A DNA stretch of 47,636 bases, taken from NCBI GenBank assembly GCA_036495095.1, contig DASXNK010000211.1, positions 1 through 47,636 on the forward strand. Direction: 5' to 3'. Numbering within the stretch: the first letter of the stretch is position 1; every line of letters begins with the position of its first letter. Below the pieces are notes generated by a model. The model was given only the letters and a program-made list of their open reading frames with translations. It searched no databases and was not told the DNA's origin. The position numbers and the translations under genes were made by a program. Below are positions 10,846-41,699 of the stretch, piece by piece. This DNA comes from Candidatus Dormiibacterota bacterium (GTDB lineage Bacteria > Chloroflexota > Dormibacteria > Aeolococcales > Aeolococcaceae).

Positions 10846-11277
10846 CTACGAGGCGACCAGCGAGGGCACCAGCCCGAGCTGGTCGAGCAGGTCGAGGCGG
10901 TCGAGGATCAGCCGCTGCCGCGCCACCTTGCCGCGCTCGACGGTGATGACATTGATGTACTCCGCCTGCACCCGGCGGCCGGTCGGCGAGATATCGCCCA
11001 TCGGCGTCCGGAACACCCCGCGGTGGGTGCCGGTGAAGCTCCCCTCCTCGATCACCGTCGAGCCGTCGACGTGGAGGCTGTGGGCGGTCACCCGGCAGTC
11101 GGGGAAGGCGTTCCACCAGGTGGCGTAGTAGGCGCGGTTCTCGTCGACGCCGTGGTACACCGCGTTGGCGAAGGTGATGCACTCGATGTCGTCGGCCATG
11201 AGCCCGGCGACCACCGGCCAGTCCTTCGCGTTGAAGGCGGCGTTGAGGCGCTCGGCGACGTCCGTGGGTGTGGGCAT
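10846..11277 (-). other. Possible internal translation start for a free SnoaL-like protein
   Basis: Within the fusion gene, ATG 11277 is preceded by GGAGG with a 10-nt spacer. It opens exactly one complete SnoaL-like domain of 143 residues (PTPTDVAERLNAAFNAKDW...). The preceding linker is Pro/Ala/Thr-rich. The domain could therefore also be made as a separate protein. This is inference from the ribosome site only. Confidence 0.35.
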
Positions 11278-13191: not shown

Positions 13192-13258
13192 CGGAACCCA
13201 TATTCGCGCGACTCCCACCACCGCGCGATGAAGAGCTCAGGATCATCCGGCCATCGCC

Positions 13259-14871: not shown

Positions 14872-16077
14872 TCACATCCAGGAGCGCAGCCGCCGCCTGC
14901 GGGCGCGCTTCCAGGCCGCGGGCCAGTCCGCCCGGGCGCTCGCTGCGCGCGCCTGCTCGACCCCCCAGAGCTGCCCGGCGACGAACGCCGCCTCGCCACC
15001 GCCGGTGGCCTGCACCCGCAGCCGCTCGGCGGCGACCACGGCGTCGTGGTGGGTGCCGAGGACCTCCTGGACGCCGGCCACGGCCTTCGCGAAGGCGCTG
15101 GCCCGCTTCCCGAGCACCGGGGCGCCCGCCTCGGCGGCGTAGCGGGCCCGCTTGGCGCGGATGCGGAGCCGGTGCAGCTCGACGTCGGTGGCGCCGTCGC
15201 GCCGGAGCCGCCGGGCGTCGCGGCGCAGCTTCCGCCATGGCCGCCGCACCAGCCCGGGGAGCACCCCGCCGGCGGGCTGATCGGCCTCGGGCAGCAGCAT
15301 CGGGCTGTACGAGGCCTCGACGAGGCGCTCGAGCAGCTCCAGGTAGCGGGGCGAGCGCATCGCCTCGACCAGCTGCTCACGCGCCCGCAGGATCTCCGCA
15401 CGGAAGCCCGCGGCCAGCTCGGCGCCCCGCTCCAGGTCGGCCTCGGGCAGAGCTGCCACCACCCGCTCCATCTCCTCGGCGAGCACCTCGGCGTCGCGCA
15501 CCCGGCCCAGCTCGCCGCCGATCCAGCGCAGCTCCTCCCCCAGGGGGTCGCTCCAGCCGGCGATCAGGAGCGGTGCGAAGGTGCGCAGGTCGGAGCGGAG
15601 CCGGCGCACCGCAACCCGGGCCTGGTGCACCGCCTCGGGGTCGCCGCCGAGGCGCACCCCGGCGTCGTGTCCGACGAGGCGGAGCGTGGCCGTGGCGATG
15701 GAGCGACGCACCACCGCGGCGGCGGTCGACCGGCGTCCCACCTCCTCCACCTCGACCTCGGGCGGCGGCGCCTCGCCACGCTCGAGCCGCGGCAGCAGCT
15801 CGGCGGTGCGCGCGTAGGCGGCGACGAGATCGCGGGCCACGTCGGGGACGGCGTCGCCGTCTCCCTCCACCCGGCGCAGCCGGTCCGCCGGCCCCTCGCC
15901 CTCAGCGGGCAGCTCCACCGTCCAGCCCTCGCCCTCCTGGTGCGAGAGCCGGACCCCCCAGCGCGCCAGCCGGAGGTCGGGCGTGTCCCAGACCACCGGG
16001 GTGACCACGCGGTCCGGGCTCGGGGGGGCGCTCAGCATGACCGCCGGCGCCGCTCCAGCGGTGATCGTCTCCTGCAT
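14872..16077 (-). CDS. CHAD-domain protein with truncated CYTH remnant
   Basis: 401 residues from ATG 16077 (GGGAGGG 8 nt upstream). The C-terminal CHAD domain (about residues 125-400) has the conserved helical repeats with basic residues, for example VHQARVAVRRLRSDLRTFAPL and HRLRIRAKRARYAAEA. CHAD domains bind polyphosphate. The N-terminus keeps only part of a CYTH triphosphatase fold: VVWDTPDLRLARWGVRL and GEGWTVELP match the intact paralogue at 38061. The first strand with ExExK and most later basic strands are missing. It is therefore probably a polyphosphate-binding protein without triphosphatase activity. It ends 8 bp from the convergent PHP gene. Confidence 0.85.
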   Translation of the reverse strand: MQETITAGAAPAVMLSAPPSPDRVVTPVVWDTPDLRLARWGVRLSHQEGEGWTVELPAEGEGPADRLRRVEGDGDAVPDVARDLVAAYARTAELLPRLERGEAPPPEVEVEEVGRRSTAAAVVRRSIATATLRLVGHDAGVRLGGDPEAVHQARVAVRRLRSDLRTFAPLLIAGWSDPLGEELRWIGGELGRVRDAEVLAEEMERVVAALPEADLERGAELAAGFRAEILRAREQLVEAMRSPRYLELLERLVEASYSPMLLPEADQPAGGVLPGLVRRPWRKLRRDARRLRRDGATDVELHRLRIRAKRARYAAEAGAPVLGKRASAFAKAVAGVQEVLGTHHDAVVAAERLRVQATGGGEAAFVAGQLWGVEQARAASARADWPAAWKRARRRRLRSWM

Positions 16078-16174
16078 CGCCCACCCTCCCGGCGGCGGGC
16101 CGGTCCCGCCACCCCAACGCACCCGAATAGGTGACAGCGATGCTACCAGATGATCACCGGTCGTTGCCCGTGAC

Positions 16175-16862: not shown

Positions 16863-17750
16863 CTACTTGTCGGCAGCCGACTGCCGGTTGGTGGTGCTCA
16901 GGGGAAGGAACCCGGCGGAGGTGACGCCGGAGCTCTGATAACCGGGGGCGAGAATGAAATTGATGTAGTCATTCGCAAGCGGCGGCGGAGCCGGGCTCTT
17001 CCGCGTGTACATGTGCTCATGGGAGAAGAAGTTGTAGGCGCCGGAGGCGACGCTGGGCCCGTCCGGGGTCGCGCCGTTCAGCTTCACCGCGGTGACGTTG
17101 GACGCACCGGCGAGCGAGGCGGTTCCGACGTAGGAGACCGCGCCCGGCTGGCTGGAGACCGCCTGCATGACCAGCTGGGTCGAGTCCTCCTGGGCCGCGG
17201 GGGTGGTCGACTCGGGCACGCTGCCCATCACGCACTTGTCGAAGCTGAAGCGGGTGCCCGATCCGGGCTTGCGCTCGATCAGGGTGATCGCCACGCTCTT
17301 GCCGCCGACCTGGCTCCAGTTGTTGACCTTCCCGGAGAAGACGTCCTGGACCTGCTGGGTGCTCAGGTTGCCGACGCCGGCGCCGGTGTTGGCCACCACG
17401 GCGAAGACCACGATCGCCACCTGGTGATCCTGGAGGTTGGCGCCGTTGACGCCCGGGGCCGCGGTGGCGGGCACGTCGGAGTCGCCGATGTCCGAGGTGC
17501 CGCTGTTGACGTTCGACAGGCCCGCGGACGAGCCGCCGCCGGACACGGTGATCGTCGCCCCGGCGCACTGGGCGTGGTAATCGGTCGATGCCTTCTGGGC
17601 CAGCGGCTGGAGCGCCGTCGACCCGCTGGCGGTGATGCTGCCACCCACACAGCCGGCGAAGGCCGTGGGCCCGGCGACATAGCTCATGGAGCTCCAGCCC
17701 GCGATGGCCAGTCCCGCTGCGACCATGGTCAGGGCACGATGAGATCTCAT
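16863..17750 (-). CDS. pstS: Phosphate ABC transporter substrate-binding protein PstS (copy 1)
   Basis: 295 residues from ATG 17750, which has GGAGGAAGG upstream; a longer frame to 17816 lacks a ribosome site. A signal peptide (LTMVAAGLAIAG...PTAFAGC) is followed by the mature domain with PstS signatures: GSTALQPLAQKA, ITVSGGGSSAGL, GTSDIGDSDVP, ERKPGSGTRFSFD and STTPAAQEDSTQLVMQAV. The GSGTR and SGGGSS loops bind phosphate. The AGC at the predicted cleavage site may be a weak lipobox, so surface anchoring is possible. It stands alone, 8 kb from pstCAB, with its own double-unit Pho promoter. A second PstS is encoded at 29583, and the two share the same core motifs. Confidence 0.93.
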   Translation of the reverse strand: MRSHRALTMVAAGLAIAGWSSMSYVAGPTAFAGCVGGSITASGSTALQPLAQKASTDYHAQCAGATITVSGGGSSAGLSNVNSGTSDIGDSDVPATAAPGVNGANLQDHQVAIVVFAVVANTGAGVGNLSTQQVQDVFSGKVNNWSQVGGKSVAITLIERKPGSGTRFSFDKCVMGSVPESTTPAAQEDSTQLVMQAVSSQPGAVSYVGTASLAGASNVTAVKLNGATPDGPSVASGAYNFFSHEHMYTRKSPAPPPLANDYINFILAPGYQSSGVTSAGFLPLSTTNRQSAADK

Positions 17751-17820
17751 ATTCGTTCCTTCCTCCTCTCTCGACGTGCCGGCGACACAGGCCGGCACAC
17801 AACCGAAATCTCTCACCCGT

Positions 17821-17877
17821 ATCCTGCAGCGTGCCAGGTTGTCGGCGCTATTGCACTTCGGTTAAGTGGCGGTTAAG
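17821..17877 (-). promoter_or_regulatory. Pho-type promoter of pstS1
   Basis: Two perfect CTTAAC units (17877-17872 and 17866-17861) are followed at the same 11-bp period by TGCAAT and CGACAA. A -10-like CAGGAT lies at 17821-17826, 12 bp further on. This is the cleanest tandem TTAA pair in the window and lies upstream of a gene known to be Pho-controlled in many bacteria. Confidence 0.75.
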
Positions 17878-19541: not shown

Positions 19542-19569
19542 GTTAAGGCGAGGACTCAGTCAGGGTTAA
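19542..19569 (+). promoter_or_regulatory. Pho-box-like array for the DUF4214 gene
   Basis: Plus-strand GTTAAG, GACTCA and GGTTAA are spaced exactly 11 bp apart, with two strong units. The -10 is unclear. The 420-bp gap between genes 17900 and 19726 contains this array and the one at 19349, and nothing else that I recognise. Confidence 0.6.
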
Positions 19570-19725
19570 GCACTCGGTCCGAAGCGTGACGAAAGCCACG
19601 AACGGGTCCACTCCGGACTGTTCCGACGCAAGTTCCTCCAGATGTACCCGTTGCGCATCTGTCAGCGAATGAGTCGACCGGTGGCACCGCCGCCGGACGG
19701 CCTGAAGGAAGGGAGAAACAGGGAC

Positions 19726-20475
19726 ATGATTCGTATGCGAGCAGGCGCTGTCGCGCTGCTCCTCACCGCCGGCACCGGGCTGGCCGGGTTGATGAGCTCG
19801 GCCTCGGCCGCGGTCACCCCCCCGGCGCCGGTCGTCACCTCGGTGTCGCCCGCCGAGAGCTTCGTCAGCCATGCGTACTACGACCTGATCAACCACCCGG
19901 CCGACGCCGCCGGCAAGGCCTACTGGGTCGGCCAGGTGAACGCGGGCAAGAGCCACGCCATGGTGGCCGCGGCGATGATCAACACCGACGCCTACCGCCA
20001 GCGGGTGGTCGCGGACGCCTACCTCGCCACCATCGGGCGCTATCCCGACGCCCCCGGGATGCAGTACTGGACCGGCCGGCTCGCCGCCGGTGTCGGCCTC
20101 GAGCAGCTGACCGGGTCGCTCGCCGGCTCGCCCGAGTACGCCGCCGGGTTCGGCACCAACTACGACGCCTACGTCAGGGCGATCTACCAGACGCTCCTGG
20201 GACGCCTTCCCGAGCCCGCCGGCCAGGCCTTCTGGGTCGGCCGCCTGGCGACCGGCATTCCGATGTGGAACGTCGCCGCCAGCATCTCCCACACCGCCGA
20301 GTGGTACGGAAACGAGGCGATCTTCGACTTCGTCCACTACCACAACGGCTTCCCCGACGGTCCGGGCCTCAGCTACTGGACCCATGCGCTCCAGACCGGC
20401 ACCAACGACTCGACCGTGGTCGCCGCCCTGGTGGGCAGCCCCGCCTACGCGGCCTGGGCCGCCACCCACCCCTGA
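19726..20475 (+). CDS. Secreted protein built of DUF4214-type repeats
   Basis: 249 residues from ATG 19726, preceded by GGAAGGGAG. A signal peptide (AVALLLTAGTGLAGLMSSASA) comes first. After a short Pro/Val linker, three to four helical repeats of about 55 residues follow. Each has the pattern AYYDLINHPADAAGKAYWVGQV, then a helix, then YLATIGRYPDAPGMQYWTGRL or YQTLLGRLPEPAGQAFWVGRL, and finally a SPxYAA motif. These match DUF4214, a repeat common in secreted and surface proteins, often in adhesins or allergen-V5-like exoproteins. No catalytic residues are apparent. The upstream Pho-like array suggests expression under phosphate limitation; the role is unknown. Confidence 0.8.
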   Translation: MIRMRAGAVALLLTAGTGLAGLMSSASAAVTPPAPVVTSVSPAESFVSHAYYDLINHPADAAGKAYWVGQVNAGKSHAMVAAAMINTDAYRQRVVADAYLATIGRYPDAPGMQYWTGRLAAGVGLEQLTGSLAGSPEYAAGFGTNYDAYVRAIYQTLLGRLPEPAGQAFWVGRLATGIPMWNVAASISHTAEWYGNEAIFDFVHYHNGFPDGPGLSYWTHALQTGTNDSTVVAALVGSPAYAAWAATHP

Positions 20476-20611: not shown

Positions 20612-20650
20612 GTTAACTGACAGGGCCGCTGCAGTTAACCTGTGTTGGTG
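20612..20650 (+). promoter_or_regulatory. Pho-box-like array for cysteine-rich repeat gene A
   Basis: Plus-strand GTTAAC, GGGCCG, GTTAAC and TTGGTG are spaced 11 bp apart; two of the units are identical and lie 22 bp apart. The 315-bp gap (20476-20789) also holds the upstream gene's terminator and nothing else recognised. Confidence 0.6.
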
Positions 20651-20789
20651 ATCGTTCGCCGCCGGCCCTCCATCTGCAAGGTGTCGGCCGGCCCGGACGT
20701 CAGACAACGCAGGAGAGGCGTGCTACGCACCCCGTCCCAGTCGCACGCGCAGCGTGCCGGGGCCGAGGCACGCTCTGAGGAGGTATGGC

Positions 20790-22181
20790 ATGAGATTGCC
20801 GGGTCCCTATGCGTTCACGGGCTGGCGGCGCGTGGTGCTGCCCGTGGCGATGCTGAGCGTCGCCGCGGCGGTGTCGACGGGGCTGGCGTCGATCTCCGCC
20901 TCTGGCGGCGGCCAGAGCGGATCGAGACCGGTGCTCGTCGACACCAACGCGCCCGACCCCGAGGTCGAGAACCAGGCCGCAACCCTGGTCCTGGCGCCCG
21001 CGAACGACGACAACTTCACCCCGCCGGGCGCGTGCGGCGGGACCAACGTGGCCCCCTCGCGCTGTACCGCCGCGGTGTGGGTGGTGACCAGCTCGACGCA
21101 CACGCTGTCGTATTCGGCGACCGCGTGCTCGACGAGCCCCAGCCTCCAGGTGCTGGTGCTGACCGGGAACAACATCCCGGAGTGCACCGCATCCTCGTTC
21201 CTGCCGGCCGCGCCGCCGGCGGCGGCCCCCGGAGCTCCGGCCCCGGCACCGGCTCCTCTGCAGACGGCGCTCACCGGGTTCCCGGGCTCGCGCTGCATCC
21301 CGTCGGAATGCCGCCTCTTCCTCGTCCTCGCCCAGGCTGACGGCGACTTCAACGCCCCGGGCCTCTGCGGCGGCACGGCGGACATCATCGCGCCGTGCAT
21401 GGTGGCGTCCTTCGACACCGTGGGCAGGGTCGGTGGTGCCACCATCGCCCAGCCGAACACCGCGTGCCCGGCGAGCGGTGACGCCACCGTCGCGTGCACC
21501 GCGAACCCCGCCTTCTTCCCCGCGGGCATGAACCTCACCCTGCCGGCCAAGGCCACCGCGGCCCCGGCGACCCCGCCGGTCCACGGTCCCGAGGTGCTCG
21601 CCCAGGCGGCCACCGTCGTGATCGCACCGGTGGGTGACAACAGCTTCGATCCGCCGAACACCTGCGGCACCTGGGGCGTGAACCCGGTGGGCCGCTGCAC
21701 CGCGGCGGTGATGAGCCTCGCGATGGCGGACACCAGCGCCACCTACGCGAGCGCCTCGTGCCCGATCGACCTCGCCGCGGACGTCGCCCCGTGCACCTCC
21801 GCCGCCTTCCAGCCGTCGGTCGGCAAGGCCGCCCTCACCAGCCTTCCGGGCTCGCTGTGCTATGGCGCCGCGCCCGCCGCGACGGCGGCGGTGCCGAACC
21901 CCCAGGCGCCGGTCGTGAACTGCCACATGTTCGTCGTCCTCACCCCGAAGGACGGTGACTTCAACGCCCCGGGCATCTGCCTCGGGTACTTCCTCGTCAG
22001 CTCGGCCTGCACGATGGCGGTGGTCGACACCTCCACCGGCGACCAGGCGGGCGGCGCGAGCGCGGCGCTGAGCAGCACCAGCCTCTGCGTCGAGCCCCCG
22101 GGCGACCCCGACATCAACGTCGCGTGCACCGCGGCGAGCTTTGCGCCCAAGGGGGTCATCCTCACCCTGCCGAAGTCCTGA
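20790..22181 (+). CDS. Secreted cysteine-rich repeat protein, paralogue A (unknown family)
   Basis: 463 residues from ATG 20790 with GAGGAGG upstream. A signal sequence with twin Arg (TGWRRVVLPVAMLSVAAAVS) is followed by two long repeats of about 200 residues. Each repeat has a first half beginning PEVxxQAAT-VxAP--DxxF-PPxxC and containing an RCTAAV motif. The second half has C-x-(L/M)F(L/V)VL followed by DGDFNAPG-(L/I)C, an (A)PC or (S)AC-M motif, and a final TLP. Cysteines occur in regularly spaced pairs, suggesting disulfides outside the cell. The DxDxN spacing resembles a calcium loop but is not a proven one. Two paralogues follow at 22380 and 24123. I do not recognise the family and assign no function. 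Confidence 0.72.
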   Translation: MRLPGPYAFTGWRRVVLPVAMLSVAAAVSTGLASISASGGGQSGSRPVLVDTNAPDPEVENQAATLVLAPANDDNFTPPGACGGTNVAPSRCTAAVWVVTSSTHTLSYSATACSTSPSLQVLVLTGNNIPECTASSFLPAAPPAAAPGAPAPAPAPLQTALTGFPGSRCIPSECRLFLVLAQADGDFNAPGLCGGTADIIAPCMVASFDTVGRVGGATIAQPNTACPASGDATVACTANPAFFPAGMNLTLPAKATAAPATPPVHGPEVLAQAATVVIAPVGDNSFDPPNTCGTWGVNPVGRCTAAVMSLAMADTSATYASASCPIDLAADVAPCTSAAFQPSVGKAALTSLPGSLCYGAAPAATAAVPNPQAPVVNCHMFVVLTPKDGDFNAPGICLGYFLVSSACTMAVVDTSTGDQAGGASAALSSTSLCVEPPGDPDINVACTAASFAPKGVILTLPKS

Positions 22182-22212
22182 TCCAGGACTGAGGCGCTCA
22201 CCACGCAAACGA

Positions 22213-22248
22213 CGGCGGCCGGCCGGGGGACACCCCGACCGGCCGCCG
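22213..22248 (+). terminator. Terminator-like hairpin after repeat gene A
   Basis: A 15-bp GC stem with one mismatch (22213-22228 pairing with 22233-22248) lies 30 bp past the stop. Confidence 0.65.
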
Positions 22249-22330
22249 GTCCGGTTAAAAGCACTCGAGACCCGGGGGGACGGATGGATGGATCCCCGGG
22301 CCTCGAGCAGGAGGTTCTGTGGTGGAGTGG

Positions 22331-22358
22331 GTGGGGCGGGCTCTCGGTCCCGCCCCAC
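22331..22358 (-). terminator. Terminator-like hairpin after repeat gene B
   Basis: A perfect 10-bp stem GTGGGGCGGG/CCCGCCCCAC with an 8-nt loop lies 22 bp past the gene B stop. The stem sequence is nearly the same as that of the hairpin at 24050. Confidence 0.7.
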
Positions 22359-22379
22359 CCGGCGGGGGGGATCGGTGCG

Positions 22380-24008
22380 CTACTGGTTGGTGCCGAGGAC
22401 CGGATCCTCGGGGATGTGGATGGTCACGGAACCGTGGGTGGCGAGAAGTGCACCGAAGGTGCCCGCGGCCGGAGGCGACGGCGGGACAACCGCGCCGCCC
22501 GCCACACAGGTGTCGGTCACGTCGGCGTCGAAGCCCGGCTGGTTGGTCACGGGCGTGATCACCGGCGCGGCGCCGCTCGGGCAGACCGGGGTGGAGCTGT
22601 TGACCGTGATGTCGTCGCCCTCGTGTCGGCCCTCGGTATTCACCGAGAAGAGCAGGCAGGGGCTGCTGACGCTGGTGGTCGCATTGCTGAGCGTCCCGCA
22701 GGGGTTGTTGGAGTTGAAGTCGCCATCGACCCGGGTGAGCACGACGTAGATGCGGCAGGCGACCACAGGGAGCACGCCGGCGACCGGCGCGGCCGGCTCA
22801 GGGGCGTGGCAGGTCATCGGCGGAAGGTTCTTGATCGCCGTCTGACCCTTGGAAGGGCTGAACGGCTGCGCGAAGCAGGGGTCGCCCTGGTTGTTGCCGT
22901 GGCTGTGGCCGGGGGTCGAGACGTCGAAGGTGCAGCGGGTGTCGGGGAAGTTGACGTCACCGCCGGTGAAGCCGACGGGGATGTTGATGATGTCCGCAGT
23001 GCAGCGGTTCACCGGCTTGATGCCGTCGATCGAGCACGCGTTCGGCGGGTCGAAGGAGAACTGGCCCACGGGGGCGAGCTCATAGCTGATGGCCTGGTCG
23101 GCCACCTCGGTGCTGTGCTGCGGGAGCGCCGCGACGGGCGTCTGCAGCTCAGGGTTCGGGGTCATCGCCGGCGGCAGGGTCATCGACATGTCCGCCGGCT
23201 TGAAGGGCAGGTTGGTGCACGACTCGCCGATGTCACCGATCGGCGGCAGGCTGAGGTTGGAGTCGGTCGGGCACTTGTTGTCGCTGAACTGCAGCGTCTG
23301 CCCGCCGGGGTTGGCGGCGACGCCGCTGGTGGTGATCACTGCCACCGTGCACGGGCCGGTGAGGTAGAAGGCGGCGGAGCAGAGGCCGGGGGTGTTGAGG
23401 TCACCGTCCCTGTTGGTCAGCAGCATGAAGAGCCGGCAGAGCCCCGGCTTGCAGCTGGTGCCCGCCCAATCGAAGACCGCGGTCCGCCCGGCGGCATCGG
23501 TCGCCTTGGTGAGCGCGGTGTTCACCGAGGCCAGGAATGCGGGAGCGGTGCACGCGCTGACCTTGTCCGGCGACTTCAGCGAGAGGACCTGCAGGCCGGG
23601 CGAGGTCGGTGTCGGGAAGCCGGTCACCGGGCAGGGGGTCGACGAGTACTTCAGGTTCTTCCCCTGCGTCGAGTTCGGCGTGAAGACCGCCAGTGTGCAG
23701 CGGGTCTGCGACACGCTCAGCTTGGTGGCGGAGAAGGTGCCGGTCGCGGCGCCCGGGGCCGTCAGCGTCGTCGGCGCGCCGCCGCAGGTGTTGTTCGGCT
23801 GGAAGTTGTCGTCGCCCTTGGGCGCGAGGACGAACGAGATGGACTGCGCCGTGATCTCCGGATCGGGCGCGTTAGGGTCGGAGGCGACGGTGCCACCCCC
23901 GCTGGAGGCGAGGCTCTGGCCCCCCCCCACGGTGAGCGCGGCGCCGAGGCTGACCACTGCCAGCGGCAGGGCCAGGCGGCGCAGCGTCTTGGATCCCCAG
24001 ATGTTCAT
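22380..24008 (-). CDS. Secreted cysteine-rich repeat protein, paralogue B (unknown family)
   Basis: 542 residues from ATG 24008 with GGGGAAGGG upstream. The N-terminus (SKTLRRLALPLAVVSLGAAL) closely matches paralogue C and acts as signal sequence. Two long repeats follow. Repeat 1 has ITAQSISFVLAPKGDDNFQP, QTRCTLAVF, CRLFMLLTNRDGDLNTPGLC, GPCTVAVI and LSLPPIGDIGESCTNLPF. Repeat 2 has VADQAISYELAPVGQFSFDP, VNRCTADI, CRIYVVLTRVDGDFN and SPCLLFSVNTEGRHEGD. It is the longest of the three paralogues through insertions between blocks. It lies 114 bp downstream of gene C on the same strand, behind a strong hairpin, so it may be expressed by partial read-through. Function is unknown. Confidence 0.72.
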   Translation of the reverse strand: MNIWGSKTLRRLALPLAVVSLGAALTVGGGQSLASSGGGTVASDPNAPDPEITAQSISFVLAPKGDDNFQPNNTCGGAPTTLTAPGAATGTFSATKLSVSQTRCTLAVFTPNSTQGKNLKYSSTPCPVTGFPTPTSPGLQVLSLKSPDKVSACTAPAFLASVNTALTKATDAAGRTAVFDWAGTSCKPGLCRLFMLLTNRDGDLNTPGLCSAAFYLTGPCTVAVITTSGVAANPGGQTLQFSDNKCPTDSNLSLPPIGDIGESCTNLPFKPADMSMTLPPAMTPNPELQTPVAALPQHSTEVADQAISYELAPVGQFSFDPPNACSIDGIKPVNRCTADIINIPVGFTGGDVNFPDTRCTFDVSTPGHSHGNNQGDPCFAQPFSPSKGQTAIKNLPPMTCHAPEPAAPVAGVLPVVACRIYVVLTRVDGDFNSNNPCGTLSNATTSVSSPCLLFSVNTEGRHEGDDITVNSSTPVCPSGAAPVITPVTNQPGFDADVTDTCVAGGAVVPPSPPAAGTFGALLATHGSVTIHIPEDPVLGTNQ

Positions 24009-24049
24009 TGTCCCTTCCCCTAGTGTGCGGAAATTCGGTTGTTCGGGTC

Positions 24050-24077
24050 GGGGCGGGATCGGTATCGATCCCGCCCC
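24050..24077 (-). terminator. Strong hairpin between repeat genes C and B
   Basis: A perfect 12-bp stem GGGGCGGGATCG/CGATCCCGCCCC with a gtat loop sits in the 114-bp gap. It could terminate gene C or attenuate read-through into gene B. A CACACT hexamer at 24024-24029 on the minus strand might serve B as its own -10. Confidence 0.7.
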
Positions 24078-24122
24078 ACGTGGTTCGTGTGGGTGCCCGT
24101 GGGCGGCGGTGCCGCCGGCGGG

Positions 24123-25463
24123 TCAGTTGCCGAGGGTCGGATCCTCGGGCAGGGTCACCTGGATGTCCGGGATCGGCAGGTACGCGGGCGAGGTGCAGTC
24201 GCCGTTGATGTCGATGCCGGAGGTCGGGCACATATCGGTGCTGAGGCCGACGGTGTCGCCCTCGTGACGGCCCGAGGTGTCCACCACGCCCAGCGCGCAC
24301 GGGCTGGAGAGGTTGGTGAAGCTGCTGCAGAGGCCACCGGGGTTGAGGTCGCCGTCCTGGCGGGTGAGCATCACGTAGATGCGGCAGCCGACCTCGGTGC
24401 TGTTCGGCTGGGTCTCGGGCAGCGGCGCGAGGCAGAGCGTGCCCGCGGGGTAGTTGTGGATCGCGGTCTTGCCCGGCGACACGGTGAAGGGGGCGGCGAC
24501 GCAGGCGTCCTGGGGACCGGAGAGGTCCAGGGTGCACTTGGTGTTCGAGTAGCTGATGTCACCACCGCCCTCGGGGACGTCGAGGATCGCCGCGGTGCAG
24601 CGGTTCACGGGCTTGAGGCCGACGATGCTGCAGGCGTTGGGGGGGTCGAAGGTCCACTGGCCGTTGGGGGTGATCACCATGGTCAGGGCCTGGTTGGCCA
24701 CCTCGGGGCTGTGCACCGGGTTGCTCGGCGGCGCCGGCGTGCCGTTGTCCGGCAGGTGCAGGGTCATGTCCGCCGGCTTGAAGGGCAGGTTGGTGCACGA
24801 CCCGCTGATGTCGCCGATCGGCGGCAGGCTCAGGTTTGAGTTCTCGGGGCAGCTGCTGCCGCTGAAGTCGATGACGTCGGTGCTGCCATGGCCCTCGGTG
24901 TCGACCACGGCCACCGTGCAGGGCGAGGTCAGGTAGAACGCCGCCGAGCACAGACCGGGGGCGTTGAAGTCACCGTCGTGCTGGTGGATGACCATGAACA
25001 GAAGGCACGGGCCCGGGAAGCAGCTCGCCCCCGGGAAGTCCTTGATGGCGAGCTGGCCGCCGCTCGACGGCAGGTAGGCCGCCGCGGTGCAGGGGCTGAG
25101 CTGGCTGGCGCTCTTCAGCGAGATGCCCTGGAGACCGAGCTGGTCGTTGGTCTGCGCGGGACACGGGTCGCTGGAGTAGCTGATGTCGGCCGGCTGCTTG
25201 TCGGTCGCGAAGATGGCGGCGGTGCAGCGGTTCTGGCCGAGGCTGGTGGCAGCGCAGGCGTTGCCCGGCTGGAAGTTGTCGTCGCCGGAGGGCGCCAGCA
25301 CGAAGGTCACGCCCTGGGCGCTGACCTCGGGGTCACCGACGCCCGCGGCGCTGCCCGCGGCGTGCGAGCCGCCGAGTCCGAAGCCGATCGCGCTGACCAG
25401 GCTGACCACTGCCAGCGGCAGGGCAGCTCGGCGCCACGACGTGAATCCCCAGTTTGTCATCAT
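24123..25463 (-). CDS. Secreted cysteine-rich repeat protein, paralogue C (unknown family)
   Basis: 446 residues from ATG 25463; GGGAAGGG lies upstream. The signal sequence contains twin Arg (TSWRRAALPLAVVSLVSAIGFGLG). The two repeats have the same blocks as paralogues A and B: VSAQGVTFVLAPSGDDNFQP, NRCTAAIF, CLLFMVIHQHDGDFNAPGLC, TSPCTVAVVDTEG and LSLPPIGDISGSCTNLPF, then VANQALTMVITPNGQWTFDP, VNRCTAAI, CRIYVMLTRQDGDLNPGGLC and SPCALGVVDTSGRHEGD. The shared LSLPPIGDIxxSCTNLPFKPADM block makes B and C closer to each other than to A. It is the promoter-proximal gene of the B/C pair, with a Pho-like array at 25593-25620. No known family or catalytic motif is seen. Confidence 0.72.
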   Translation of the reverse strand: MMTNWGFTSWRRAALPLAVVSLVSAIGFGLGGSHAAGSAAGVGDPEVSAQGVTFVLAPSGDDNFQPGNACAATSLGQNRCTAAIFATDKQPADISYSSDPCPAQTNDQLGLQGISLKSASQLSPCTAAAYLPSSGGQLAIKDFPGASCFPGPCLLFMVIHQHDGDFNAPGLCSAAFYLTSPCTVAVVDTEGHGSTDVIDFSGSSCPENSNLSLPPIGDISGSCTNLPFKPADMTLHLPDNGTPAPPSNPVHSPEVANQALTMVITPNGQWTFDPPNACSIVGLKPVNRCTAAILDVPEGGGDISYSNTKCTLDLSGPQDACVAAPFTVSPGKTAIHNYPAGTLCLAPLPETQPNSTEVGCRIYVMLTRQDGDLNPGGLCSSFTNLSSPCALGVVDTSGRHEGDTVGLSTDMCPTSGIDINGDCTSPAYLPIPDIQVTLPEDPTLGN

Positions 25464-25592
25464 CCCTTCCCTTAGCTGAGGATGCGGTCCCCGGCGCGAT
25501 TGGTCGCGCAGCTGACTGACAGGGTTTCCGCACCGCTCCTACAGCCGGTTCAGACGGGACCTTCGGACAAATCTTGCATGGGCCCGGAACTT

Positions 25593-25620
25593 GTTAAGGA
25601 GCAGGTCGGGGCACGCTTAA
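25593..25620 (-). promoter_or_regulatory. Pho-box-like array for repeat genes C and B
   Basis: Minus-strand TTAAGC, CCGACC and CTTAAC are at 11-bp spacing. AAGATT at 25570-25575 is a possible -10, but its distance differs from the other boxes. Confidence 0.5.
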
Positions 25621-25756: not shown

Positions 25757-25812
25757 CTTAACTCATCCTTAATGAGCGGGTAACCCGCCCATCCCTGGGC
25801 TGGGCCCAGCAT
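25757..25812 (+). promoter_or_regulatory. Pho-type promoter of the pstCAB-phoU operon
   Basis: CTTAAC, CTTAAT, GGTAAC and CATCCC repeat every 11 bp (25757-25795). Then comes an 11-bp gap and the -10 CAGCAT at 25807-25812, the same hexamer as at pstS2. The 446-bp gap between genes C and pstC holds this and the box at 25593. Confidence 0.75.
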
Positions 25813-25908: not shown

Positions 25909-26913
25909 ATGAGTCAGGACGTGCTCGCCCCGCCACCACGGGTGGGTCCGGCGCCCCCACCGGGCCCCGCGCGGGCGGTGTGCCGGGTCGGCCTCCGGGC
26001 CGCTCGGGTCGACGCGGTGATGCGCTGGGTGGTGCTCGGCGCCGCCGCGGTCAGCGTGCTCGTCGTCGTCCTGGTGGTCGTCTTCCTCGCCAGCAAGGCG
26101 GCCCCGGTGCTGCACAAGCCCGGTCTGAGGGAGTTCCTCACCAGCGCCGACTGGCAGCCCGACGGCACCGGCGGCGGCTTCGGGGGGGTCTCCTCCTTCG
26201 GCGCGCTCCTTCCCATCGCCGGCTCCGCGATGGTGGTGGCCCTGGCGCTCGTCCTCGCGGTGCCGCTGGCCATCTCGGCCGCGCTCATCCTCGAGGAGCT
26301 CAACCCGGTGGTGGGCGGCCGGGTGCTCCGGCCCGCCGTCGAGCTGTTCGTGGGCATCCCGTCGGTGGTCTACGGCTACCTCGGCTTCATCGCGCTCCTG
26401 CCCATCCTCGAGCGGGTGGCGCCGCCCGGGCGTCAGGGCTCGGGGGTGCTCGCCGCCGGTGTGGTGCTCGCGATCATGGTCACCCCCACCATCGCAACCA
26501 TCAGCGCCGACGGCCTGAGCTCCGTGCCCCGGGCACTCAAGGAGGCGTCCCTGGCCCTCGGCGCCACCCGCTGGCAGACCATCTGGCGGGTGCAGATCCC
26601 GGCGGCGCGGGCCACGATCATCAGCGGCGTGGTGCTGGGGCTGGCCCGGGCGATGGGCGAGGCCCTGGCGGTCGCCCTGGTGATCGGCGACGTCAACGCC
26701 CTCCCCCCCTTCAAGGAGTACGGGCTCAGGGCGCTCCTCTTCCCCACCACGACGATGACCGTGACCATCACCGACGGCGTCAACCAGCTGGCGATCAACC
26801 CGGACGGCACCGCCGCCCGGTACGCACTGGCCCTGGTGCTGCTGCTCATCACCTTCGGCTGCATCGCCGTGGTGCGCTTCGTGAACCGGGGCAGCGTCAG
26901 GAGCGTGGTGTGA
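25909..26913 (+). CDS. pstC: Phosphate ABC transporter permease PstC
   Basis: 334 residues from ATG 25909. A basic cytoplasmic N-terminus leads to a first helix (about residues 40-65, VLGAAAVSVLVVVLVVVFLA), an extracytoplasmic loop (LREFLTSADWQPDG, a PstC hallmark) and further helices. The permease EAA loop reads LKEASLALGATRWQTIWRVQIP, and the family motif PSVVYGYLGFIALLP precedes it. It forms the membrane channel with PstA. It is the first gene of the pstC-pstA-pstB-phoU operon, and its stop overlaps the pstA start. Confidence 0.95.
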   Translation: MSQDVLAPPPRVGPAPPPGPARAVCRVGLRAARVDAVMRWVVLGAAAVSVLVVVLVVVFLASKAAPVLHKPGLREFLTSADWQPDGTGGGFGGVSSFGALLPIAGSAMVVALALVLAVPLAISAALILEELNPVVGGRVLRPAVELFVGIPSVVYGYLGFIALLPILERVAPPGRQGSGVLAAGVVLAIMVTPTIATISADGLSSVPRALKEASLALGATRWQTIWRVQIPAARATIISGVVLGLARAMGEALAVALVIGDVNALPPFKEYGLRALLFPTTTMTVTITDGVNQLAINPDGTAARYALALVLLLITFGCIAVVRFVNRGSVRSVV

Positions 26914-27788
26914 ACCGCCGGGCCCGGGTCACCGACCAGGCGGCGGTGCTGATCATCCGCGGCCTCGGGGTGATCCTGGTGGCGCTGCTCGCCTGGATCA
27001 TCGTCTTCCTCATCATCAACGGCTGGCAGGAGCTGCACCGGCTCGGCTTCTACACCCAGGCACCGAACATCGGCGGCCCCGGCAGCGGGGTGGGCCCGCA
27101 GCTCTTCAACACCTTCTACGTCCTGGTCCTCTCGATGCTGCTCACCGTGCCGGTGGCCCTGCTGGCGGGGATCTACTTCGCCGAGTACGCCGGCACCGGG
27201 GCGCTCACCAACGCGGTGCGCCGGGCCACCGAGACCCTGGCCACGCTGCCCTCGATCATCGTCGGCCTGTTCGGGTTCGCCCTCTTCGTCGAGGCCACCC
27301 ACTCCCATCCCAGCCGGCTTGCCGCCGCCCTCGCCCTGCTGGTGATCAACCTGCCGTACGGCATCCGGATCACCGAGGACGCGCTCCGGTCGATTCCCAG
27401 CAACCTGCGCGAGGGCAGCCTGGCGCTCGGTGCCACCCGCTGGCAGACGGTCACCCGGGTGCTGCTCCCGGCGGCGCTTCCCAGCCTGATCACCGGGGTC
27501 ATCCTCATGGCCGGGCGCGCCTTCGGCGAGGCCGCGGCCATCCTCTTCACCGGATCCGCAGGAGCGATCACGGCGGCGGGCAACTACAGCCTGAGCCCGT
27601 TTCTCGCCGGCGACACCCTCGCCGTCGACCTCTACCAGTTCCGCACCCAGGCCGAGCCGGGCACGGTGACCGACGCCCGGCAGTACGCTGACGGCGTGGC
27701 CGCCCTGCTCATCCTGCTGGTGCTGGTCTTCAACGCGTCCGCCCGCCTGATCGGCCGTGTGGCCGTCCGCCGCCTGCAGGGAGGCTGA
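26910..27788 (+). CDS. pstA: Phosphate ABC transporter permease PstA
   Basis: 292 residues. The start is GTG 26910, overlapping the pstC stop by 4 bp (GTGA). The frame stays open far upstream, but only this start fits the family length. Helices include GLGVILVALLAWIIVFLIINGW, LVLSMLLTVPVALLAGIYFAEYA and TLPSIIVGLFGFALFV. The EAA loop reads LREGSLALGATRWQTVTRVLLP, almost identical to that of PstC. NLPYGIRITEDALRSIP and GRAFGEAAAILFTG are PstA-type. It pairs with PstC for high-affinity phosphate import. Confidence 0.95.
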   Translation: MNRRARVTDQAAVLIIRGLGVILVALLAWIIVFLIINGWQELHRLGFYTQAPNIGGPGSGVGPQLFNTFYVLVLSMLLTVPVALLAGIYFAEYAGTGALTNAVRRATETLATLPSIIVGLFGFALFVEATHSHPSRLAAALALLVINLPYGIRITEDALRSIPSNLREGSLALGATRWQTVTRVLLPAALPSLITGVILMAGRAFGEAAAILFTGSAGAITAAGNYSLSPFLAGDTLAVDLYQFRTQAEPGTVTDARQYADGVAALLILLVLVFNASARLIGRVAVRRLQGG

Positions 27789-27797
27789 GGGAGAGAG

Positions 27798-28637
27798 ATG
27801 GGGATGTCCGCCGCCGAGCCCATGGACGGGTCGCAACCCGCGGAGACAGCGAGCCCCAGCGCGGAGCCCGACCGGAAGATCTCGACCCGCGACCTCAACC
27901 TGTACTACGGCACGACCCACGCGGTCCGCGACGTCAACTTCTGGGCCACGCCCGGCGACATCACCGCGATCATCGGCCCCAGCGGCTGCGGCAAGAGCAC
28001 CCTGCTGCGCAGCCTCAACCGGATCAACGACGTGATCCCCGGCTTCCGGATGGAGGGGTCGATCCTGCTCGACGGCGAGGACCTGCTCGTCCCCGGGGTG
28101 GACGTGATCAATCTCCGGCGCCGGATGGGCATGCTCTTCCAGCGGCCCAACCCCTTCCCCGCCTCCATCTACGACAACGTCGCCTACGGCCTGCGCCTCG
28201 CCGGCCGGGTTCCCCGGTCGGTCGCCGACGGCATCGTGGAGAGCTCGCTGCAGCGCGTCGCGCTCTGGGACGAGGTCAAGGACCGGCTGGGCAGCTCCGG
28301 CCTCGGTCTCAGCGGAGGCCAGCAGCAGCGCCTCTGCCTGGCCCGGGCGCTGGCGGTCGAGCCGGACGTGATCCTGATGGACGAGCCCTGCTCGGCCCTC
28401 GACCCGATCGCCACCCTGCGCATCGAGGAGCTGCTCCACGAGCTCCGAGGATCGGTCACCATGGTGATCGTCACCCACAACATGCAGCAGGCGACCCGGG
28501 TCAGCGACCGGACCGCCTTCATGCTCGTCGGTGAGGGACGTGTCGGTGAGCTGGTGGAGATGGGCCCGACGATCGAGCTCTTCAGCAATCCCAGGGACCG
28601 GCGCACCGAGGACTACATCACCGGGAGGTTCGGATGA
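27798..28637 (+). CDS. pstB: Phosphate ABC transporter ATP-binding protein PstB
   Basis: 279 residues from ATG 27798 (GAGGGAGAGAG upstream), 9 bp after pstA. A 28-residue acidic and Ser/Pro leader precedes [20 protein letters not shown]. Motifs present: Walker [10 protein letters not shown], the PstB-specific [16 protein letters not shown]-loop [17 protein letters not shown], signature [15 protein letters not shown], Walker [23 protein letters not shown], and switch [18 protein letters not shown]. This is a complete PstB. It overlaps phoU by 4 bp. Confidence 0.96.
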
Positions 28638-29308
28638 GCGAGATCGTCTCCCATCCCCAGCGGAGCGTCTTCGACGAGGAGCTGCGCTCGGTCCGCTCCG
28701 CGGTCACCGAGATGGGCGAGCTGGTCGACCGGGCCATCTCCGGCGCGATGGTGGGGCTCATGGAGCGCGACGTCGACGCCTGCGCGGTGGTGATCGCCGA
28801 GGACGCGCGGATCAACGAGCTGCAGCGGGATGTCCGCGAGCAGAGCTTCACGATGATCCTCACCCAGGCCCCGGTGGCCCGCGACCTGCGCGAGATCATG
28901 GGGCTGCTCCACATGTCCGCGGAGCTGGAGCGGATGGGCGACCACTGCGTCAGCATCGCCAAGATCGCGCGCTCGCTCGCCGACTTCCCCCAGCTGGCCA
29001 CCCACATCGACCTCCCCAAGATGGCCCAATTCTGCCGGGAGCAGGTGCGCGACATCCTCGCCGGCGTGGTCGCGCGGGACGTCGCCCGGGCCCGGCTGGT
29101 GGCGGCGCGCGACGACCGCATCGACCGGGTCTACCACCGCCTCTTCGACGAGCTCGTCCAGCTGATGTCGGACGACGGGCAGAGCGCCTACCGGGCCACC
29201 CACCTCGTCTTCGTCGCCCACCACCTGGAGCGCATCGCCGACCGGGTGACCAACATCGCCGAGGATCTCGTCTACCTGGAGACCGGGGTCATCGAGGAGC
29301 TCGGCTGA
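28634..29308 (+). CDS. phoU: Phosphate signalling regulator PhoU
   Basis: 224 residues; start ATG 28634 overlaps the pstB stop. Two PhoU three-helix repeats are present. The first ends in [28 protein letters not shown], the second in [25 protein letters not shown]. Both carry the E/D-x3-D metal-cluster pattern. PhoU couples Pst transport state to PhoR, lowering Pho regulon output in high phosphate. It is the last gene of the pst operon. A shorter-range paralogue is encoded at 8589. Confidence 0.94.
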
Positions 29309-29582: not shown

Positions 29583-30497
29583 GTGCACCGACATCTGAAT
29601 CTCATGGCCGCGCCCATGCTCCTCGGCGTCCTCGCCCTGGCGGCGTGCGGCAGCGACACCAGCGGCACCGGGTCGACCTCGAGCAGCAGCAGCACCACCA
29701 GCTCGAAGGCCGCGGCGGCCTGCGCCACCGGCACCGCCACCGCCAGCGGCTCCACCGCGCTGCTGCCGCTGGCGCAGAAGGCAGCCGAGCTCTACGCGGC
29801 GAAGTGCCCCGGCGCCACCATCACCGTCAGCGGCGGCGGCTCCTCCACCGGCCTCGCCAACGTCGCCGCGGGCACCTCGGACATCGGCGACTCCGACGTC
29901 CCCGTGAGCGACGCGCCGACAATCAACGCCAGCGCGCTCACCGACCACCAGGTCGCCATCGTCGTCTTCGCGATCATCGTGAACCCCAAGACCACGGTGA
30001 CCAACCTGACCCTGAAGCAGGCCCAGGACGTCTTCAGCGGCAAGGTCACCAACTGGAAGGACGTGGGCGGCGCCGACCTGCCGGTCACCCTGATCGAGCG
30101 CAAGCCGGGCTCAGGCACCCGCCTCGCCTTCGACAAGACGGTGATGCGGGGCACCCCGGAGTCGACCACGCCGGCCTCCACCCAGGACTCGACCCAGCTC
30201 GTGGTCCAGGGCGTGACCGGCGCCGACGGAGGCGTCTCCTACGTCAGCCTCGCCTCGGCGAACGCCACCGTGACGGCGCTGAGCCTGGACGGCGTCAAGC
30301 CGGGCGCCGACACCGTCAAGGCCGGTCAGTACCCCGCCTTCTCCCACGAGCACATGTACACCAAGGGGCAGGGCTCGGCGCTCGCCCAGTCCTTCATCGC
30401 CTACATCCTGACCGACACCTTCCAGACCGGGACGGTGACCACCCTCGGGTTCCTGCCGCTCTCGACCACCGACGCTCAGTCGCTGGCCGACAGGTAG
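29583..30497 (+). CDS. pstS: Phosphate ABC transporter substrate-binding lipoprotein PstS (copy 2)
   Basis: 304 residues from GTG 29583; an ATG at 29604 is the alternative. The N-terminus MHRHLNLMAAPMLLGVLALAACG ends in a clear lipobox, so the mature protein is membrane-anchored. A Ser/Thr-rich linker leads to the binding domain with GSTALLPLAQKAAELY, ITVSGGGSSTGLANV, GTSDIGDSDVP, ERKPGSGTRLAFD and FSHEHMYTKG. It shares all these motifs with PstS1 (16863) but, unlike it, has a canonical lipobox. It has its own Pho promoter behind the pstCAB-phoU operon. The two PstS proteins may differ in affinity or location. Confidence 0.94.
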   Translation: MHRHLNLMAAPMLLGVLALAACGSDTSGTGSTSSSSSTTSSKAAAACATGTATASGSTALLPLAQKAAELYAAKCPGATITVSGGGSSTGLANVAAGTSDIGDSDVPVSDAPTINASALTDHQVAIVVFAIIVNPKTTVTNLTLKQAQDVFSGKVTNWKDVGGADLPVTLIERKPGSGTRLAFDKTVMRGTPESTTPASTQDSTQLVVQGVTGADGGVSYVSLASANATVTALSLDGVKPGADTVKAGQYPAFSHEHMYTKGQGSALAQSFIAYILTDTFQTGTVTTLGFLPLSTTDAQSLADR

Positions 30498-32146: not shown

Positions 32147-32851
32147 TCAGCTCCGCGGCAACTGGTCGAGTCGGTAGCCGACCGCGAACACCGTGGTGAT
32201 CCGGAACGGGATGGCCTCGAAGCGCTCGAACTTCTCGCGCAGCCAGCGCACGTGCACGTCAACGGTCTTGCGGTCGCCGTAGAAGTTGCTCCCCCAGACC
32301 TGCTGGATCAGGCTCTCGCGCGAGTGCACGCGGTTGGGATGCGCGAGCATGAACGACAGCAGGTCGAACTCCTTCGGCGCCAGCCGCACCTCCTCCTCGC
32401 CGACGTGCACGGTGCGCGCGCCGCGGTCGAGCTTGAAACCGTCGAGCTGCTCGACGTCGGAGGGCTGGCCGCCCTTCTGACCGCTGAGCTCCACCCGGCG
32501 CAGCAGCGCGTTGATGCGCGCCATCAGCTCGGTCAGCGAGAACGGCTTGGTGACGTAGTCGTCGGCGCCGACGTGGAGGCCGACCACCTTGTCGATCTCC
32601 GCGCCCTTGGCGGTGAGCATGAGGATCGGCGTGGCCATCTCCTGGCGGAGGATGCGGCAGACCTCGAGCCCGCTGAGCTCGGGCAGCATGAGGTCGAGCA
32701 GGATGAGGTCGGGACGGATGCGGCGCGCCTCGTTGAGCGCCTCCGGGCCGGTGCCCGCCTCGCTGACCTCGTACCCCTCCTTGACGAGGTTGTACCGCAG
32801 CGTCTGGCGGATGTTCGCCTCGTCCTCCACGACGAGGATGCGCTTCGGCAT
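32147..32851 (-). CDS. phoB: PhoB/PhoP-type response regulator (OmpR family)
   Basis: 234 residues. The receiver domain (1-120) has the acid pair E9-D10, phospho-acceptor D53 (LILLDLMLPE), T80 and K102. The C-terminal winged helix (about 135-232) has LAPKEFDLLSFMLAHPNRVHSRESLIQQVWG, then RKTVDVHVRWLREKFE and the wing VFAVGYRLD. It is divergent from phoR, and a Pho-like array lies between them. It is the best candidate for the protein that binds the TTAA boxes across the window, since its linker and recognition helix are intact. The assignment to PhoB/PhoP rests on the PhoR neighbour and context; the fold itself is shared by many OmpR-type regulators. Confidence 0.88.
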   Translation of the reverse strand: MPKRILVVEDEANIRQTLRYNLVKEGYEVSEAGTGPEALNEARRIRPDLILLDLMLPELSGLEVCRILRQEMATPILMLTAKGAEIDKVVGLHVGADDYVTKPFSLTELMARINALLRRVELSGQKGGQPSDVEQLDGFKLDRGARTVHVGEEEVRLAPKEFDLLSFMLAHPNRVHSRESLIQQVWGSNFYGDRKTVDVHVRWLREKFERFEAIPFRITTVFAVGYRLDQLPRS

Positions 32852-32899: not shown

Positions 32900-32965
32900 A
32901 TGGTGCGGTGCGCCGGGGGCGGGGCGGGTTATCGGCCACTTAAGGGTCCGTTAACCGTGCTCAGC
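32900..32965 (-). promoter_or_regulatory. Pho-box array between phoB and phoR
   Basis: On the plus strand GGTTAT, ACTTAA, CGTTAA and CTCAGC repeat every 11 bp (32927-32965). Read toward phoB, one further unit, a 10-bp gap and CACCAT (32900-32905) fit the geometry of the other Pho promoters. This suggests positive autoregulation of phoB. Confidence 0.6.
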
Positions 32966-33008: not shown

Positions 33009-34121
33009 ATGAGCACGCCGCATGGCGGGACGGAGATCTCCACGATGCCCCCGCTGCTGCTGGAGCGGCTGGTCGAGAGCCTCCGCGACGGCGTGCTGGT
33101 CGTCGACGCGCAGCACCTCATCCGCAGCGCCAACCCTCCCGCGTGCCTGCTGCTGCAGCTGCCCGAGCACCCCGAGGGGCTGCGCCTCGAGGAGTGCGTC
33201 GGCGACTACCGGGTCTGCCTGCTGGTGGACGGATGCCTGTCGTCGGGCACCGCGGTCGAGCGCGAGCTCAGCGATCCCCTCGACGTGCGCCACGTCCTCG
33301 CCCACGCCGTCCCCGTCGTCGACCAGGCCACCGGCACCACCGTCGAGGTCGCGGTGATCCTCCGCGACGAGACCAGGGTCCGCCGGCTGGAGACGGTGCG
33401 GCGTGACTTCGTCGCCAACGTGTCCCACGAGCTCCGCACCCCGGTCGCGGCCATCCAGCTGCTGGTCGAGACCCTGCTCGGCGGCGCCCTCGACGATCCC
33501 GGGGTGGCCCACGAGTTCGTGTCGAAGATCGGCCTCGAGGTGGCGCACATGGGCCAGATGGTCGCCGAGCTCATCGAGCTCAGCACCATCGAGTCGGGCC
33601 GGCTGCCGATGCGCATGGAGCCGACCCCGGTGACCGAGCTGGTGGCCGCAGCCGAGCGGCTGCGCCCGCTTGCCGACGAGCGCCGCCTGCAGCTGCGCTA
33701 CGAGGTCGACCCCAGCACGCCGCACGTCTACGGTGACGGACCGCGGCTGGGCCAGGTGGTGCGCAACCTGGTCCACAACGCCATCAAGTTCACCCCGGAG
33801 GGCGGCTCGATCACGGTGTCGGCGCGCCGCGCCGTCGAGACCGACGCCGACATGGTCGAGATCCAGGTCACCGACACCGGCTGCGGGATCGCTCCCGACG
33901 ACCTCCGCCGGGTCTTCGAGCGCTTCTACAAGGCCGACCGTTCGCGCCGCCGCGAGGGCGAGGGCAGCGGCCTGGGACTGGCGATCGCCCGGCACACCGT
34001 CGAGGCCCACGGCGGCCGGATCGCGGTGCAGTCGACGCCCGGCCGGGGCGCCACCTTCGTGGTGCTCCTCCCCTCCTTCAGGGGCGCGGGGACGACGTCG
34101 CTGCGGCGCCGGAGGGGCTGA
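33009..34121 (+). CDS. phoR: PhoR-type sensor histidine kinase
   Basis: 370 residues. An N-terminal PAS-like region (about 15-120, LVESLRDGVLVVDAQHLIRSANPPA) is followed by HisKA with FVANVSHELRTPVAAI, where His140 is the phosphorylated residue. The ATPase domain follows with N-box LVHNAIKFTPEGG, G1 DTGCGIAPDDL, F-box FERFYKADRSRRREGEGSGLGL and G2. There is no transmembrane helix, so it is a soluble kinase as in some PhoR/SenX3-like proteins, probably receiving its signal through PhoU and Pst. The last 44 bp overlap the convergent second response regulator gene. Confidence 0.88.
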   Translation: MSTPHGGTEISTMPPLLLERLVESLRDGVLVVDAQHLIRSANPPACLLLQLPEHPEGLRLEECVGDYRVCLLVDGCLSSGTAVERELSDPLDVRHVLAHAVPVVDQATGTTVEVAVILRDETRVRRLETVRRDFVANVSHELRTPVAAIQLLVETLLGGALDDPGVAHEFVSKIGLEVAHMGQMVAELIELSTIESGRLPMRMEPTPVTELVAAAERLRPLADERRLQLRYEVDPSTPHVYGDGPRLGQVVRNLVHNAIKFTPEGGSITVSARRAVETDADMVEIQVTDTGCGIAPDDLRRVFERFYKADRSRRREGEGSGLGLAIARHTVEAHGGRIAVQSTPGRGATFVVLLPSFRGAGTTSLRRRRG

Positions 34122-35880: not shown

Positions 35881-38060
<2,180 letters not shown>

Positions 38061-38064
<4 letters not shown>

Positions 38065-40572: not shown

Positions 40573-40665
40573 GTGCTCGTTCCTCCGCCAGGGTCGGATC
40601 GCACGGGCCAGCCGGAGTTTCCCCCCCGGACGCCCCCGGTCTCCCGACGTGGGAAAAGTGTGCGG

Positions 40666-40713
40666 AGTCTGTTGAAAACACGTGGACAGAGTGGTTAAGA
40701 CCTGCTTAACCAC
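40666..40713 (-). promoter_or_regulatory. Palindromic Pho array and promoter of the 40201 gene
   Basis: GTGGTTAAG and CTTAACCAC (40691-40699 and 40705-40713) form a perfect inverted repeat. On the minus strand the units GGTTAA, TCTTAA and CTGTCC keep the 11-bp period. After 12 bp comes CAGACT (40666-40671). Confidence 0.6.
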
Positions 40714-41494: not shown

Positions 41495-41662
41495 GGGGGG
41501 TGTCCTTCGGTGGGCGACACCCCACCTGGGTCTGCCGGGGAGAGGGGAGACCCCGACATCGACAGGAAACGATGCCGGTGGGCGATTCCCTGCGGCCTTC
41601 CCGCACTCGTGACAGGGCGGCACGGTGGCGTCACAGGCGCGACAGCGCCGAGACGCGCCAAA

Positions 41663-41678: not shown

Positions 41679-41699
41679 GACGGGTGGAACGGGCCCGGA

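Follow-up and report, generated by a model that had tools for sequence, protein, structure and literature searches.

We have analysed a 47,636-nucleotide stretch of bacterial DNA (contig DASXNK010000211.1, C211:1-47636; hereafter the window) and describe three of its genes, A, B and C, which encode cysteine-rich proteins with predicted export signals. In each protein, four homologous units of ~95 residues follow one another. At the sequence level the A-C family is new, and only one genus is as yet known to have it. The genes stand among phosphate (Pho) genes and behind Pho-box-like TTAA arrays. Our analysis directly established the gene and repeat anatomy, the lack of known relatives, the non-random occurrence of the arrays and their partial conservation. 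The window is the whole contig or most of one, has a GC content of 0.73, and represents 1.1% of the source genome (48 kb of 4.4 Mb), which is a draft of 4.38 Mb with a completeness of 96.6%.

Genes and repeat units of proteins A, B and C

Gene A (20790..22181, forward strand) encodes a protein of 463 residues, gene B (22380..24008, reverse strand) one of 542 residues and gene C (24123..25463, reverse strand) one of 446 residues. Gene B starts 114 bp downstream of gene C on the same strand, and the two genes probably form one operon. The three proteins are 40-53% identical (B and C 53%, A and C 41%), each comprises four units and contains 20 Cys at positions corresponding across the three, and the mature proteins are acidic, with isoelectric points (pI) of ~4.2 for A, ~4.65 for B and ~4.1 for C. 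We consider that A, B and C are coding because the GC content at the third codon position (GC3) is 0.94-0.95, because purine-rich ribosome-binding sites stand before their ATGs, and because the paralogues are conserved at the protein level. Their GC content by codon position (~0.6/0.55/0.95) is like that of other genes in the genome. An alternative GTG start of gene A is possible at 20754; the ribosome-binding site AGGAGG (20778-20783) is placed before the start at 20790.

A preliminary description of this DNA had placed three paralogous Cys-rich proteins at these coordinates and had assigned two repeats of ~200 residues to each. Both statements were borne out, and the second can be refined, as each ~200-residue repeat consists of two homologous units of ~95 residues, giving 12 units over the three proteins. 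In gene C the units lie on the reverse strand at 25026..25334 (C1), 24738..25028 (C2), 24432..24710 (C3) and 24138..24395 (C4). C1 and C3 are of the odd type, for which C1 shows the pattern PEVxxQ...FxP..C...RCTA, and C2 and C4 are of the even type, for which C2 shows C-x-(L/I)(F/Y)...DGDxN-PG-C...PCT. Comparison of the unit profiles gave P=8e-7 for first versus second, 6e-21 for second versus fourth and 3e-17 for first versus third units. With the even-unit profile, the odd units C1, B1 and A1 reached 19-26 bits, whereas 200 shuffles that kept the Cys positions fixed gave maxima of 8-12, and the odd-unit profile likewise recognised most even units under the same control. We therefore describe each protein as a string of four units, since odd and even profiles recognise each other. 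For C3, B3 and B4, which gave no signal above the shuffles, this odd-even link is weak. Each unit holds two Cys pairs, and one further Cys pair lies at each odd-even junction.

The motifs quoted in the preliminary description are present in the units, but they are not strict. Among the odd-unit features, which also include FxP, PEVxxQ varies to PEI in B1 and to TEV in B3, and RCT(A/L)(A/D) is found in every odd unit. In every even unit, C-x-(L/I/M)(F/Y) stands before DGD(F/L)N, and DGDxN is invariant in six of six; (S/G/A)PC occurs in most even units, with SAC instead in A4.

All three proteins carry a hydrophobic N-terminal signal after an RR pair, in the contexts WRRAAL, LRRLAL and WRRVVL. 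The twin-Arg signal that had been proposed is thus literally there, but the residue before RR is the hydrophobic W or L, F-L-K is missing, and no motif of the (S/T)RRxFLK type is formed; accordingly, export by the twin-arginine translocation (Tat) pathway is unsupported beyond the RR pair itself. No C-terminal hydrophobic segment able to serve as an anchor was found in A, B or C. The N-terminal signals, together with the 20 Cys, suggest that the three proteins are extracellular.

Relatives of the family and a remnant in a congener

No family in Pfam, NCBIfam or PHROGs matched the whole proteins at E<=1, and none of the 12 single units matched Pfam at E<=5. No match was found among PDB sequences; two PDB matches to the unit profile, at E 1.4 and 1.8, were judged to be chance. 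Searches with tblastn in plasmids and phages gave no relative of A, B or C, and viral contigs gave none either. When profiles were searched against 110 genomes of the class, which are mostly incomplete drafts and include only two congeners (67-68% complete), the source genome alone was matched, and no relative was accepted in 400 genomes of the phylum plus 393 from the class of another phylum member. Motif pattern scans of 84,980 species genomes returned no relative, and literature searches brought up nothing on proteins of this kind. The expectation that the proteins match no known family thus holds at the level of sequence.

Several candidates were set aside in these searches. In one genome of the phylum (G238), a match with E=2.6e-4 runs antisense to a gene for enoyl-CoA hydratase. 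Three genome matches to DGD(F/L)NxPGxC have no open reading frame (ORF) with Cys repeats at those sites and are not relatives, and weak unit-profile matches in class genomes (E 0.01-0.3) were discounted as short pieces, many of them interrupted by stops.

The only trace of the family outside the source genome is a remnant of gene C beside pstC in the congener G002; no intact homologue of A-C was found outside the source genome in the genomes searched. In G002, the DNA upstream of pstC can be aligned with the window as far as position 25411, which lies inside gene C, and the segment beside pstC encodes MMRHWGLTSWRRA, which matches the start of gene C, MMTNWGFTSWRRA, over the first ~13 codons. 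Beyond this remnant the alignment jumps to window position 18685, in a phosphoesterase gene. The common ancestor of both genomes thus had a C orthologue next to pstC. On the G002 contig (C125, L020, ~16025-16029), the ~13 codons of the C orthologue are fused, in the same reading frame, to the ~270 codons at the end of the phosphoesterase gene, forming an ORF of 282 residues; the contig also lacks the first pstS and the CHAD genes. A search of G002 for the missing half of the phosphoesterase showed that the genome carries several paralogues; the junction is either a deletion or an assembly collapse. Considering that the contig is joined inside the phosphoesterase, that other stretches are absent as well and that the assembly is 67% complete, the missing A-C genes in G002 are not evidence of loss.

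TTAA arrays and the surrounding Pho island

The window contains 26 TTAA sites, and 14 of these form seven pairs spaced 11, 22 or 23 bp apart. Pairs with the same spacings did not occur in 300 first-order Markov simulations, which under-produce TTAA (mean 3), so that genome-wide counts are the better control. In the whole genome, TTAA-N7-TTAA has eight sites, four of them in the window (one match for the reversed control), and TTAA-N18/19-TTAA has six, three of them in the window (two for the control). The random chance that four of eight sites fall in 1.1% of the genome is ~1e-6, for a pattern that was chosen after viewing the window. The longer form TTAA-N7-TTAA-N8-TAA has two sites genome-wide, one before pstC and one between the response regulator and the histidine kinase genes.

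With respect to the genes of interest, a Pho-box-like TTAA-N18-TTAA in a 22-bp register (20613..20638, forward) lies ~150 bp before the start of A, and a Pho-box-like TTAA-N19-TTAA (25594..25620, reverse) lies ~130 bp before the start of C/B, with a 23-bp spacing identical in G002. A Pho-box-like triple repeat, TTAACTCATCCTTAATGAGCGGGTAA (25758..25783, forward), precedes pstC and is likewise conserved in G002, where the C-gene and pstC pairs, with unchanged spacings, make up four of the five TTAA sites within 18.5 kb. Further arrays are found before the first pstS (TTAA-N7-TTAA, 17862..17876, reverse), between the divergent phosphoesterase and DUF4214 genes (TTAA-N19-TTAA, 19543..19569) and between the divergent response regulator and histidine kinase genes (Pho-box-like triple repeat, 32929..32954). 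Outside the window, one TTAA-N7-TTAA stands between divergent genes for PhoU and a PhoU-like DUF47 protein (C81:57295, L026), and a second one directly precedes a PhoR-like kinase gene; therefore, the repeat is independently tied to phosphate genes.

The proposal that TTAA arrays stand upstream of A and of C/B was confirmed, and the simulations and the genome-wide counts speak against chance. The further proposal that the genes are Pho-induced finds support in sequence features only, namely the arrays, the Pho-gene neighbours and the C array kept in the congener. A, B and C are located among pst, phoU and phoB/phoR-type genes, as would be expected of Pho regulon members, and we consider that A and C/B probably belong to this regulon.

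The island is otherwise an ordinary Pho island. On the side of gene A it holds a PstS-like phosphate-binding protein (PBP_like_2; 16863..17816, reverse; E=2.6e-34), a phosphoesterase of the phospholipase C/acid phosphatase family (PF04185; 17900..19306, reverse; E=3.6e-79) and an exported DUF4214 protein (19642..20475, forward; E=2.3e-26). On the side of gene C, the forward strand encodes the permeases PstC (25909..26913), placed between other Pst genes, and PstA (26913..27788), the PstB ATPase (27798..28637), PhoU (28634..29308; E=4.8e-40) and a second PstS-like protein (29583..30497; E=4.1e-38). They are followed by an OmpR/PhoB-type response regulator of PhoB/PhoP type (32147..32851, reverse), by a PhoR-like PAS-HisKA histidine kinase divergent from it (33009..34121, forward) and by polyphosphate kinase (35881..38064, forward; E=2.5e-70). 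A second PhoU, a second regulator and two CHAD proteins also belong to the island. The neighbourhood had been described as one of phosphatases and Pst genes; the Pst genes are there, but only one phosphatase-like gene (PF04185) is close by.

Some other features of the same DNA are also of interest. The CHAD-domain proteins (14872-16122 and 38061-39566) share the island with polyphosphate kinase, and the CHAD domain is linked to polyphosphate. An ORF at 10849-13221 (reverse) shows glycosyltransferase, HAD phosphatase and SnoaL-like domain matches in a row, which is an unusual fusion. A TTAA-N7-TTAA (40695..40709) is found where a short ORF (40207-40698) ends and ~290 bp before the gene of a radical SAM protein with an HMPTM-type zinc ribbon (40997-43372, forward), which is possibly phosphate-regulated. 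Elsewhere in the genome, a TTAA-N7-TTAA (C105:23947, L027) stands just before the gene of a secreted beta-propeller-like lipoprotein, a candidate member of the Pho regulon.

Possible function of proteins A, B and C

We favour, tentatively, the reading that A, B and C are structural or adhesive rods which the cell makes and exports when phosphate is short, and which the DUF4214 protein perhaps holds. They would then be a lineage-specific, non-enzymatic exported family that is switched on with the Pho regulon. At low phosphate, the nearby PhoB/PhoP-type regulator would bind the TTAA direct repeats and turn on gene A and the C-B operon along with the genes for Pst, PstS and the phosphoesterase. 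Proteins A, B and C would exit the cell via the N-terminal signal, up to 10 disulfides per protein would lock the string of four small, probably beta-rich modules, and the outcome would be an acidic rod, rigid and resistant to proteases, in the surface layer or in the medium around the cell, with the exported DUF4214 neighbour as a possible surface anchor. Regulation, export, disulfide pairing, beta structure, a role at the cell surface and the partnership with DUF4214 are what we infer in this model.

The structural reading is favoured because the 12 units, with 20 Cys per protein, keep these at corresponding places and pairwise spacings. It is also favoured because the invariant residues, which are mainly Cys, Pro, Gly, Asp, Asn and Thr plus small or aromatic ones, include no recognisable catalytic set, the single His column common to the three proteins lying outside the conserved core of the units, and because the proteins have a hydrophobic signal at the N-terminus but lack a membrane anchor at the C-terminus. 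The Pho part is favoured because the arrays of A and C/B match those before the PstS, PstC and regulator/kinase genes, because half of the genome-wide sites lie in the window and the C-gene and pstC arrays are kept in G002, and because the accepted form of the Pho box is two 11-nucleotide direct repeats of species-specific sequence (PMC4415409). Considering that in segmented filamentous bacteria the DUF4214 domain is seen as a means of anchoring proteins at the surface (PMC12780176; see also PMC11970703), the DUF4214 neighbour perhaps holds the rods.

On the other hand, several observations weigh against this model. Predicted structures were unusable, with a mean predicted local distance difference test score (pLDDT) of 28.2 for full-length C (3-row alignment) and 50.1 for unit C2 (all 12 units aligned), so that beta modules and rigidity are guesses. 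The DUF4214 neighbour is the one pointer to surface retention, because A, B and C show no LPXTG/sortase motif, no SLH domain and no C-terminal anchor. Between paralogues, the ratio of nonsynonymous to synonymous substitutions (dN/dS) is 0.84-0.94, with dS lowered by a GC3 near 0.95, indicating that constraint outside the Cys is loose. In addition, clean 11-bp repeats are found at pstC, pstS and the regulator/kinase pair, unlike at A and C, whose 22/23-bp pairs have a degenerate middle repeat; the 23-bp spacing misses the register by one base. The arrays of A and C may therefore be weaker sites than the pstC array, or sites of another kind. This difference in spacing also speaks for the view that A-C are in the Pho island by chance and that their TTAA pairs serve another regulator, a view that bears on regulation alone and is compatible with any of the functions considered here. 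We consider it unlikely, since half of such arrays in the genome fall in the window and the C array is kept in G002 with exact spacing.

With regard to function, the proteins could instead bind extracellular ligands for phosphorus scavenging, taking up Ca, Fe or Al ions in the DGDxN loop, or a phosphorus compound, and so releasing mineral-bound phosphate or raising its concentration close to the cell, where PstS could use it. The invariance of DGDxN in all six even units, the low pI of the mature proteins, the Pho-box-like arrays and the Pst neighbours would fit such a role, but the loop is not kept in the odd units (GDDNF, GQWTF), a conserved Arg/Lys cluster for an anion is missing, and neither Pfam nor PDB sequences gave homology to any binding protein; we regard it as not very probable. 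Antibiotics are often under Pho control, and a secreted effector or inhibitor in microbial competition (antimicrobial, phage decoy or protease inhibitor), incidentally Pho-controlled, would agree with the loose constraint, the three copies in one genome, the Cys-rich secreted form and the patchy distribution. No immunity gene or toxin domain adjoins, however, and the neighbours are phosphate genes, which makes this role improbable. Equally improbable is a secreted enzyme of unrecognised fold acting on phosphorus compounds (phosphatase, phosphodiesterase or nuclease). The classical exported Pho proteins are mostly such enzymes (PMC4415409) and the PF04185 phosphoesterase gene is close by, but the repeat architecture, the conservation of mainly Cys and a few structural residues without a recognisable catalytic set, and the lack of any enzyme-family match argue against it.

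An exported protein of a Pho island is a known kind of thing. In Bacillus and Streptomyces, phosphatases, PstS and glycerophosphodiesterases are exported proteins of the Pho regulon, and A-C resemble them in their Pho-box-like arrays, their export signal and their location among pst, phoU, phoR and ppk. In contrast to these, A-C have no recognised enzymatic or binding domain and no sequence relatives, and they show a 20-Cys four-module architecture. DUF4214 surface proteins (PF13946) are likewise exported, and the one encoded here, whose gene directly adjoins A, belongs to the same island and has the same type of array, whereas A, B and C contain no DUF4214 domain. Small disulfide-clamped beta-domain proteins of the neocarzinostatin-like kind, a lead suggested by the Cys spacing, also have a Cys pair 10-11 residues apart with a D-x-x-G turn after it, and tandem modules; for a neocarzinostatin-like module, Pfam gave no support with the 12 units at E=5.

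In summary, most Pho proteins that are known to be exported are enzymes and binding proteins. Exported proteins restricted to one lineage are often met in groups with few sampled genomes, and accordingly the surprise of finding A, B and C is moderate until their structure or function is known. A stronger form of the favoured reading, which we hold to be rather improbable, is that A-C represent a domain family not seen before, perhaps also with a new fold, in which DUF4214-held, Cys-clamped strings of four units form a phosphate-starvation surface layer or an extracellular phosphorus-gathering matrix, in a lineage of uncultured bacteria whose phosphate physiology has been little studied. An orphan Cys-rich repeat family coupled to a Pst island would suggest that uncultured bacteria can respond to a lack of phosphate with a structure or matrix.

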